A stretch of DNA of 40,356 nt from Rhodobiaceae bacterium (lineage in GTDB: Bacteria > Pseudomonadota > Alphaproteobacteria > Rhizobiales > Tepidamorphaceae). A program made the translations under genes and the position numbers. This document shows, piece after piece, positions 36,624 through 37,506 of the stretch. Below the pieces are notes generated by a model. The model did no database searches, was not told where the DNA came from, and saw only the letters and a program-made list of their open reading frames with translations. The stretch lies in the NCBI GenBank assembly GCA_007118805.1, contig SKQW01000117.1, positions 1-40,356 of the forward strand, written 5' to 3'. The first letter of the stretch is position 1, and the number at the start of each line of letters is the position of its first letter.

Positions 36624-37133
36624 TCAGGATGTCTGGTCCTTGTTCGCCGAACGCCGCCGGTCGCTGGCGGGCTGATAGGCCACGCGCGCATGGTGCTCGC
36701 AATAGGGCACCCCCGACAGCGACGGCCGGCCGCAGAAATGGAATTCGTCGCTGCTCGGATCACCGATCGGCCATTTGCAGGTGCGCTCGCTGAGCGACAA
36801 TATGGTGGCCCGCTCTTCCTGCGGGATAACGACTTCCTCAACCGGCGCGGGTGCGCGCACCGGACGCGCCACCACTGGGGCGGCCTCCATCTTCAGGGCG
36901 GTGTTGCCAACCGTCCGCGCCGCCGGGCGGGGCGGGGCCGAAGGCCGGCTTCTCCGAGGTCTCGCGGCAGCGACACTCGCTGCCTTCGCCCGCCCCGAAA
37001 GGCCCAGCCTGTGCACCTTGCCGATCACTGCGTTGCGCGTCACGCCGCCCAGTTCGCTGGCAATCTGACTGGCGCTCAATCCATCCTGCCAAAGCTTTCT
37101 CAGAAGCTCCACGCGTTCTTCGCTCCAGGACAT
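36624..37133 (-). CDS. gcrA: GcrA cell-cycle regulator
   Basis: A 169-residue DNA-binding protein. The N-terminal HTH (MSWSEERVELLRKLWQDGLS, then ELGGVTRNAVIGKVHRLGLS) is the GcrA signature. A Pro/Arg/Ala-rich linker (about 50-110) leads to the conserved C-terminal part, ERTCKWPIGDPSSDEFHFCG and GVPYCEHHARVAYQP, which binds sigma-70. GcrA acts with RNA polymerase at promoters carrying CcrM-methylated GANTC sites and drives cell-cycle genes in alphaproteobacteria. ATG 37133 has GGAG 6 bases upstream; the frame is open 26 codons further but not conserved-looking. Three GANTC sites lie 30-52 bp upstream. It converges with serA 39 bp away. Confidence 0.96.
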   Translation of the reverse strand: MSWSEERVELLRKLWQDGLSASQIASELGGVTRNAVIGKVHRLGLSGRAKAASVAAARPRRSRPSAPPRPAARTVGNTALKMEAAPVVARPVRAPAPVEEVVIPQEERATILSLSERTCKWPIGDPSSDEFHFCGRPSLSGVPYCEHHARVAYQPASDRRRSANKDQTS

Positions 37134-37506
37134 CCGCCGCTCCATCTCTGGATCCGTGGACAGAGTCCGAGTCCCGCACAGAATCGCCAACCGAGCGAGC
37201 CTGCGCACCACTACTTATGGGATACTGGACTGGTCCGCCGCACTAAATCTCGTATCTACAGTGGCAAAGGTTACCGTATGCGCGGACTCGGCTGCAACCC
37301 CGGATCAACCTTTGATTAAGGATTTCCCCAGATCAGGGACGATTTGCCCGCAAGTGATTCCCGGATGCCACAGGCACAGACTGTCCAGAAGGGATGGTCG
37401 GCTCCGGCCAGAGCGGTGGACTTGGCGGCGGCGTCCGGCCATGATGCGCAGCCCTTAATGCCACTCCCCCTTGTAACCCATCCTGTCATGAGCCTTCGCC
37501 CCCGAA
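37134..37506. other. Intergenic region between gcrA and kdgK
   Basis: About 370 bp between divergent genes, with no convincing gene. It contains four GANTC sites (37163, 37169, 37181, 37285) and should hold the promoters of gcrA and kdgK. No TTAA-N7-TTAA box or terminator is visible. Confidence 0.6.
37163..37185. promoter_or_regulatory. gcrA: Cluster of three GANTC (CcrM methylation) sites upstream of gcrA
   Basis: GAGTC at 37163-37167, GAGTC at 37169-37173 and GAATC at 37181-37185 lie within 23 bp, starting 30 bp before the gcrA ATG. GANTC is the CcrM methylation sequence in alphaproteobacteria, and GcrA activates promoters carrying such sites. The sites may lie in or next to the gcrA promoter and link it to replication or to its own product. 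Confidence 0.55.

Follow-up and report, generated by a model that had tools for sequence, protein, structure and literature searches.

GcrA and CcrM make up an epigenetic cell-cycle module of the Alphaproteobacteria. In Caulobacter, the promoters with a GANTC site between the -35 and -10 elements are reported to form one timed group (PMC3667746, PMC4287350), and the GcrA motif has been described as YGAKTCK; in B. subvibrioides, nothing like this preference is reported apart from a slight bias toward C as the preceding base (PMC7987155). The gcrA gene of Agrobacterium tumefaciens, with six GANTC in the 250 bp upstream of it, is reported to be repressed by CcrM: a reporter made of these whole 250 bp, which takes the promoter and leader sites together, is less active with CcrM in either host, A. 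tumefaciens or E. coli (PMC11514494). From the effect in E. coli the authors conclude that it is independent of alphaproteobacterial regulators, and they propose that hemimethylation after passage of the fork raises gcrA (PMC11514494). In Sinorhizobium meliloti, the gcrA transcript is reported to start at -122, and the small RNA EcpR1 to pair with it 13 nt downstream of that start (PMC4414408); a CtrA motif overlaps the start (PMC3616915), and phosphorylated NtrX is described as binding and repressing gcrA (PMC9223101). NrdR, for its part, is reported to bind pairs of boxes with spacers of 14-17 bp (PMC12051234), and the account of its structure gives conserved G-C pairs 31 bp apart between the two boxes (9/40 and 18/49; PMC9110341).

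The gcrA locus considered here lies in a window that is an entire 40,356-base contig (C400) of a 4.12-Mb genome in 407 contigs, whose host belongs, judged by its relatives, to the order Hyphomicrobiales. A first-pass annotation had named the gene gcrA, and rightly so: besides the Pfam match (Table 1), the NCBIfam GcrA model gives 194 bits, under its cut-off of 280. A Pfam profile search of the whole genome yields this single GcrA match, and the best-scoring named GcrA among the matches listed, a list that may omit the genome itself, comes from an uncultured Tepidamorphus MAG. Elsewhere, G041, G043, G116 and G146 have three to five GcrA-family matches apiece. The start codon at 37133 (MSWSEERV...) is where the Pfam match begins, and it is also backed by a GGAG six bases 5' and by the relative G007, in which the next ATG upstream is out of frame. 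A genome without ccrM would, according to the first-pass annotation, have counted against its reading; here a 376-aa open reading frame combines N6_N4_Mtase and RAMA domains, and its best NCBIfam match is CcrM (629 bits over 21-366, under the cut-off of 830). This CcrM-type enzyme would methylate GANTC.

Table 1. Features of the gcrA locus, in window coordinates; all lie on the minus strand, which is the gcrA strand
Feature	Position	Strand	Remarks
gcrA coding sequence	36624..37133	-	Pfam PF07750, 204.4 bits against a cut-off of 26.9
GGAG, likely ribosome-binding site of gcrA	37140..37143	-	sequence
Flagged GANTC no. 3	37163..37167	-	-34 from ATG; GACTC on gcrA strand
Flagged GANTC no. 2	37169..37173	-	-40; GACTC; also in G004, G005, G006
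Flagged GANTC no. 1	37181..37185	-	-52; GATTC on gcrA strand; also in G005, G006, G007; GATTT in G004
NrdR-like box B, ATCCCATAAGTAGTGG on gcrA strand	37208..37223	-	weak alone (6.4 bits); 20.8 bits when paired with box A at 32 bp
TGCGGCGGACC block	37232..37242	-	where EcpR1 sRNA pairs with gcrA mRNA in Sinorhizobium
NrdR-like box A, ATACGAGATTTAGTGC	37240..37255	-	14.4 bits; about +6 to +21 from inferred start
Inferred transcription start	37260	-	+/- a few bases; TTG + 36-37 nt, fitted to S. meliloti start
-10 element TAACCT (TAnnnT)	37268..37273	-	logo of 80 aligned upstreams; pattern match
NrdR-like box position over -10	37271..37286	-	-9.3 bits here (poor), better in many relatives
Promoter GANTC (GAGTC), in -35/-10 spacer	37285..37289	-	TTG-N5-GANTC in 81/146 order genomes
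-35 element TTGCAG	37292..37297	-	aligned logo and pattern match

What had drawn attention to this locus are three GANTC sites within 23 bp, the outermost beginning at -52 from the gcrA ATG, and the sequence bears this out; they are the part packed into the leader of five GANTC in the 227 bp upstream of the gene. They had also been held to be far more than expected by chance. GANTC is scarce in the window (98 observed, 203 expected), with a density of 2.17 per kb in a 256,573-base sample of the genome composed of 20 contigs and the window. This sample contains two triples within 23 bp, the flagged one and another at positions 14-30 of L248, and a uniform model predicts about 6.5 such triples genome-wide and about 5e-5 for the gcrA spot. 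The triple alone is hence not unique; it is its position, together with its recurrence in relatives, that is not given by chance. L248, a 4.1-kb contig, carries the second-best single NrdR-like box (1017) as well as its GANTC triple. The pattern GANTCNGANTC occurs at 25 places in the genome and the reversed pattern at 9, raising the possibility that close doublets are favored genome-wide. On the plus strand, a sigma-70-like match at 37157-37184 (TGGACA, 16, CAGAAT; 9/12) covers the flagged sites and could be a divergent or antisense promoter; by eye, the relatives mostly keep GGACA or something near it, and a good -10 is not kept.

The first-pass annotation had proposed that the sites be compared in related species, and in this they are borne out: the triple recurs at matching positions in three of the eight genomes of the family (the host, G000, included), across two genera. 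Both G005 and G006 have the three sites at -51, -39 and -33, with one extra at -66 in G006; elsewhere in the family, G004 has two upstream GANTC, G007 two near the ATG, and G003, G001 and G002 one each. The third site aligns in six of the eight genomes as GACTC, GAGTC, GAATC, GAGTC, GATTC and GATTC, and is absent in G001 and G002. Its N thus runs through all four letters while G, A, T and C stay, which fits selection for a CcrM site.

For the order as a whole, we used 146 gcrA upstreams, a sample to which G001, G005 and G006 were added and from which G015, G114 and G147, each with a GcrA match, were left out; where a genome has several GcrA matches, the best one was used. For some genes, the start codon was assigned by a rule, namely the first ATG, GTG or TTG 5' of a match that began inside, so some distances may be off. 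Control windows of 60 nt were taken from the flanks of the gcrA loci, which are mostly coding DNA, and shuffles preserve dinucleotides; these controls ignore phylogeny, which the counts over 51 families come nearest to taking into account. A GANTC is present at -75 to -16 in 99 of the 146 upstreams, as against 489 of 8437 control windows (5.8%), and 37 of the 51 families have at least one genome with such a leader site. Within 120 nt, 112 of the 146 upstreams have a GANTC (shuffles: 61.9, sd 5.4, maximum 78). At least two sites fall in the -75 to -16 interval in 31 upstreams, and at least three in five of them (G000, G005, G006, G043 and G084). The triple at our locus looks like a local multiplication of this single leader GANTC, which is widespread in the Hyphomicrobiales.

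Across the order, the leader site is embedded in the consensus CGG.GA.GGATTCYG, with G as the preceding base in 83% of cases and T at N in 70 of 99. The latter bias indicates that N is not neutral order-wide and that a reader besides methylation may exist. When sites are ranked by their flanks only, the first 13 are all GANTC, as are 21 of the first 25, and sites differing from GANTC by one fixed base are missing from these 25; of the 109 sites that score at least 4 bits, only 43 are GANTC. The remaining 47 of the 146 upstreams have no GANTC at -75 to -16. A lack of CcrM is ruled out as the cause, with CcrM relatives found in 147 of the 150 order genomes; since CcrM is nearly universal, the leader site is dispensable.

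The flagged sites had been read in the light of methylated GANTC promoters, but a place in the core promoter is not supported: the core promoter that we predict is further upstream and has a GANTC of its own, at 37285-37289, which the first-pass annotation overlooked. We read TTGnnn and TAGnnT, 18 bp apart, as its probable -35 and -10 elements. TTG-N5-GANTC occurs in 81 of the 146 order upstreams, where shuffles give 3.3 on average and at most 8; for the extended form TTG-N5-GANTC-N10..13-TA[ACG]nnW the count is 69, against a shuffle average of 0.2 and at most 2. The logo from 80 aligned cases is (GACTC)TTGCCACNGAKTCACCSSATATTGTAGNNT, the N of the promoter GANTC being G in 49 and T in 23. The pattern TTGNNNNNGAKTCNNNNNNNNNNNTANNNT (TTG-N5-GAKTC-N11-TAnnnT), drawn from this order-wide logo, of whose 80 cases our genome is one, has a single match in the 4.12-Mb genome (gcrA strand, 37268-37297), as against none for the control. 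An earlier candidate, TTGYCR / 13 bp / TATTGT, gave way to TTG / 18 bp / TAGnnT, which is consistent with the start published for S. meliloti. The idea that gcrA has another promoter at the flagged sites was likewise rejected: the logo has no conserved -10 downstream of them, and the consensus scan finds no promoter there on the gcrA strand, a scan that also misses the proposed core promoter, which is off consensus.

The start itself can be placed by way of S. saheli (L111), which has the TTG at -158 and TGCGGCGGACC at -108. With the S. meliloti start at -122, this TTG puts the start 36-37 nt past the TTG; if the rule is carried over by analogy, our start would be near 37260 and the flagged sites would begin at about +76 to +94, within the leader of the transcript. 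A start downstream of the sites, with no effect of their mutation, was an arrangement that the first-pass annotation had listed as refuting its reading; the start placed here lies 5' of them. The promoter and the leader element occur together in 66 of the order's 146 upstreams, the leader element only in 33, the promoter element only in 15 and neither in 32. Outside the order, in the best-scoring 28 of 46 genomes with a GcrA match, TTG-N5-GANTC is found in 0 of 28 gcrA upstreams and a GANTC beginning at -75 to -20 in 6 of 28. As far as these 28 go, the methylation architecture looks order-specific.

The predicted leader also contains a block like the one to which EcpR1 pairs. Its core TGCGGCGG is present in all eight family genomes and the whole TGCGGCGGACC block in four of them; among the 146 order upstreams, the corresponding numbers are 26 and 10. 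The position of TGCGGCGGACC at -108 in S. saheli shows that the block coincides with the EcpR1 site. In most of the family, GCGGCGGA is found both in this EcpR1-type block (37232-37242) and directly at the gcrA start (37134-37143); EcpR1, if present, might pair at both. Folding gives a less consistent picture of the leader. The stretch before the leader GANTC has a mean fold z of -0.96 in 99 genomes, as against -0.15 for a control stretch, and the gcrA leader of our genome has no hairpin (z +1.0). An Rfam search of eight loci returned five matches at E up to 1, all under the gathering scores. A structured RNA in the leader was thus discarded as a candidate, the folding being weak and uneven, with none in the genome at hand and no Rfam family.

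The part of this control region that specialists would not expect is an NrdR-like operator. In the order sample, 92 of the 146 genomes have a YATATDGTAG block, and in 66 of these, palindromes like ACGANATNTCGTG, which resemble NrdR boxes, lie around the start at 26-28 bases past the block. To score them, a matrix was learned from 18 boxes upstream of nrdJ, the gene for the class II reductase, at 18 of 20 order loci (L338 and L346 were omitted as poor), the training boxes being picked with an NrdR consensus; a later matrix uses 17 nrdJ loci with our own genome left out. In the 256-kb sample of the host genome, box A is the best single NrdR-like box, and boxes A and B form the better of two pairs of at least 4 bits at spacings 30-33, the other pair sharing box A. 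The spacer of 16 bp fits the NrdR operator arrangement of two 16-bp palindromes separated by 14-17 bp, and the pair has an operator's place at or near the inferred start, though downstream of it. The nrdJ pair of the same genome scores 11.6 bits, and the second reductase locus (L303) has no pair in the stretch examined. NrdR itself is encoded in the genome (G000:C373; TIGR00244, 7.4e-50, above the cut-off), and each of the eight family genomes has a gcrA pair of at least 7.7 bits at spacings 31-33.

Across the order, gcrA pairs 31 bp apart average 2.2 bits, against -11.9 in shuffles; 84 of 145 upstreams (L176, with a short upstream, is omitted from the box tests) exceed the 95th percentile of the shuffles and 65 the 99th, and with the nrdJ matrix 31 bp is the best among spacings 20-44. 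At spacings 31/32, 92 of the 145 reach at least 4.9 bits and 66 at least 10, and a box pair is found at gcrA in 33 of the 51 families. We also scored 80 named loci, which are the best matches to the query among the matches listed, have Bradyrhizobium strongly represented and share members with the order sample: 47 of their gcrA upstreams reach 4.9 bits at spacing 31. Their flanks (478,572 mostly coding bases) yield, at spacings 31/32, three pairs of at least 4.9 bits and one of at least 10, and the two flank-control pairs at spacing 31 both sit upstream of gcrA, at distances of 399 and 461 bases. Among 27 gcrA upstreams from other orders (L279, which ends at a contig end, is counted for GANTC and not for boxes), 17 have a 31/32-bp pair unequalled by any of 100 shuffles; some of these 17 are weak in bits (4.2, -0.1), and six pairs reach at least 25 bits (L269, L276, L277, L285, L289 and L291). 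Conversely, a matrix from 23 other-order gcrA boxes, with the consensus ACACAATATATTGTGT, ranks the nrdJ box first in 17 of the 20 nrdJ loci, a reverse test that is not fully independent, as the 23 boxes were found with the nrdJ matrix.

The relation of these boxes to the promoter is often close. Of the 59 order genomes in which a pair accompanies the promoter pattern, 38 have the pair starting 11 nt past the TTG, where it spans the -10 and the start. With this offset, the TC that ends the promoter GANTC also opens the first box, which places a methylated base pair at the edge of the operator. NrdR is found in 144 of the 150 order genomes and in 63 of 76 of the class sample. No pair of at least 4.9 bits is present in G049 and G071, which are complete and without NrdR, or in G088 and G151, which have it; G063 and G127 (83% and 56% complete), in which NrdR was not found, have box pairs. 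Six genomes (G034, G074, G109, G111, G139 and G141) have a further NrdR-like box 31 bp downstream of the post-start one, giving up to three in phase. At the nrdJ loci themselves (L329-L348), 17 of 20 upstreams have a GANTC within -60 to +110 of the NrdR box, a count with no background rate beside it, and in seven it lies 52-58 bases after the start of the box; the reductase genes may be under CcrM too.

We consider it the best explanation, with a probability of roughly 0.6, that the flagged GANTC are CcrM-type leader sites within a methylation-sensitive gcrA control region whose promoter is probably also repressed by NrdR. The sites, the promoter pattern, their conservation and the boxes can be read off the genomes; the start would be that of S. 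meliloti and the methylation effect that of Agrobacterium, both by analogy with these relatives. The control region would be organized around a core promoter about 100 nt upstream of the flagged sites, with its own GANTC between -35 and -10. When fully methylated, this region would be less active; passage of the fork would leave it hemimethylated, and gcrA transcription would rise until CcrM re-methylates it. Any contribution of the leader sites on top of that of the promoter site is conjectural—one possibility is that several close sites steepen or prolong the methylation switch. At high dATP, NrdR would probably bind the box pair just downstream of the start and repress the same promoter. 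The first-pass annotation had suggested that gcrA is autoregulated or tied to hemimethylation: the tie to methylation gains from A. tumefaciens, where CcrM lowers the activity, and autoregulation by GcrA loses from the same effect in E. coli. More generally, we lean toward the view that gcrA belongs to the NrdR regulon across the Alphaproteobacteria, with dATP-loaded NrdR repressing GcrA synthesis so that the pool of DNA precursors would gate the cell cycle; in many Hyphomicrobiales, the putative operator is fused with the CcrM site, such that methylation and dATP may act on the same few base pairs.

Control of gcrA by its own product, with GcrA binding the methylated leader sites either as the activator of a second promoter near the ATG or as a roadblock to transcription of its own gene, we judge unlikely. 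The GcrA proteins of Brucella and Sinorhizobium are reported to bind methylated GANTC DNA better (PMC3667746); on the gcrA strand, T or G fills the N of 80 leader sites out of 99 and of 72 promoter sites out of 80 (30 of 37 and 28 of 31 families when each is scored by its majority), matching the K of YGAKTCK; and CGATTCT at 37181-37185 fits this Caulobacter motif (PMC7987155). However, the other two flagged sites fit it on neither strand, the leader site is typically preceded by G and not Y, no conserved -10 follows it, and the promoter scan, with the blind spot noted above, is empty there on the gcrA strand; moreover, methylation lowers the activity of the Agrobacterium gcrA region in E. coli too (PMC11514494). 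The promoter site, CGAGTCC, also fits YGAKTCK on neither strand. As for GcrA-activated promoters, which have GANTC between -35 and -10, the site at 37285-37289 has that placement and the three flagged ones do not. Less likely still is a role for the leader motif at the RNA level (a pause, structure or protein site, for instance), GANTC then being incidental. The directional flanks of the motif, the somewhat better folding of the stretch upstream of it than in shuffles, and the gcrA leader being a known sRNA target in S. meliloti and sRNA-bound in vitro in Caulobacter would all suit an RNA element, but it would be hard to reconcile with the free variation of N at the third site in the family, with the flank ranking that returns GANTC at the top (flanks being a weak guide, to judge from 43 of 109), and with the lack of a hairpin in this genome and of any Rfam family at its gathering score across the eight loci searched.

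The box pair near the start could alternatively be read by another repressor, or form an RNA hairpin beside the sRNA site; we find this doubtful, if less so than the preceding two. In its favor, the order-wide boxes have G and C at A/T positions of what we take to be the NrdR consensus, and the correspondence between protein and pair has exceptions in both directions: G088 and G151 with NrdR and no pair, the incomplete G063 and G127 with a pair and no detected NrdR, and L303 with no pair in the stretch examined. Against it, the gcrA pairs are picked out by a matrix trained on nrdJ boxes from this order, and 31 bp does best among 25 spacings, the matrix from gcrA boxes of other orders finds the nrdJ boxes in return (with the partial dependence already noted), and the spacing fits both the reported structure of NrdR (PMC9110341) and the binding tests (PMC12051234). 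That the triple is a functionless chance cluster is scarcely credible: the number of such triples expected genome-wide would allow for one, but not for the same positions in three of eight family genomes and two genera against a GANTC-depleted background.

If NrdR controls gcrA, as the preferred reading holds, the cell cycle would be tied to nucleotide supply, and one could test directly how an excess of dNTPs holds back S-phase entry. Elevated dNTPs are reported to have this effect in Caulobacter, in a paper whose main text does not mention gcrA (PMC12186491). The same paper describes a nrdR deletion that spreads more on soft agar, like a high-dNTP mutant, both of which its authors ascribe to high dNTPs (PMC12186491). 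This is a point to weigh, as loss of NrdR should free gcrA under the proposed reading, as against the phenotype of this deletion. For experimenters, placing the promoter, the promoter GANTC and the leader GANTC tells which sites to mutate. We found no paper that links NrdR to gcrA, and gcrA is absent from the main text of a survey of regulons in Proteobacteria, whose supplements were outside the scope; with supplements, RegPrecise and most subscription papers outside the search, an earlier prediction may exist.

Among described systems, the CcrM-repressed gcrA promoter of A. tumefaciens comes from a likewise CcrM-bearing member of the Hyphomicrobiales and also has a GANTC cluster upstream of the gene (PMC11514494); the reported six sites in 250 bp there compare with five in 227 bp here, of which three are packed in the leader. 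The GcrA/CcrM-controlled ctrA P1 and mipZ promoters of Caulobacter, as described, have GANTC between -35 and -10 (PMC3667746, PMC4287350), as does ours at 37285-37289; unlike the GANTC of promoters of this type, the flagged sites sit in the leader. The gcrA leader of S. meliloti is reported at 122 nt (PMC4414408), close to the approximately 127 nt inferred here, and our TGCGGCGGACC block falls at the position of EcpR1 pairing in it, as seen via the -108 block of S. saheli L111. The NrdR operators of ribonucleotide reductase genes are described as a pair of 16-bp palindromes close to the transcription start, with a spacing of about 31 bp (PMC9110341, PMC12051234), as at gcrA, where the predicted boxes are partly diverged and the target is a cell-cycle regulator and not a reductase gene. 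The methylation tie of gcrA would thus be a variant of the published Agrobacterium case, and the NrdR-like box pairs on gcrA appear to be new.
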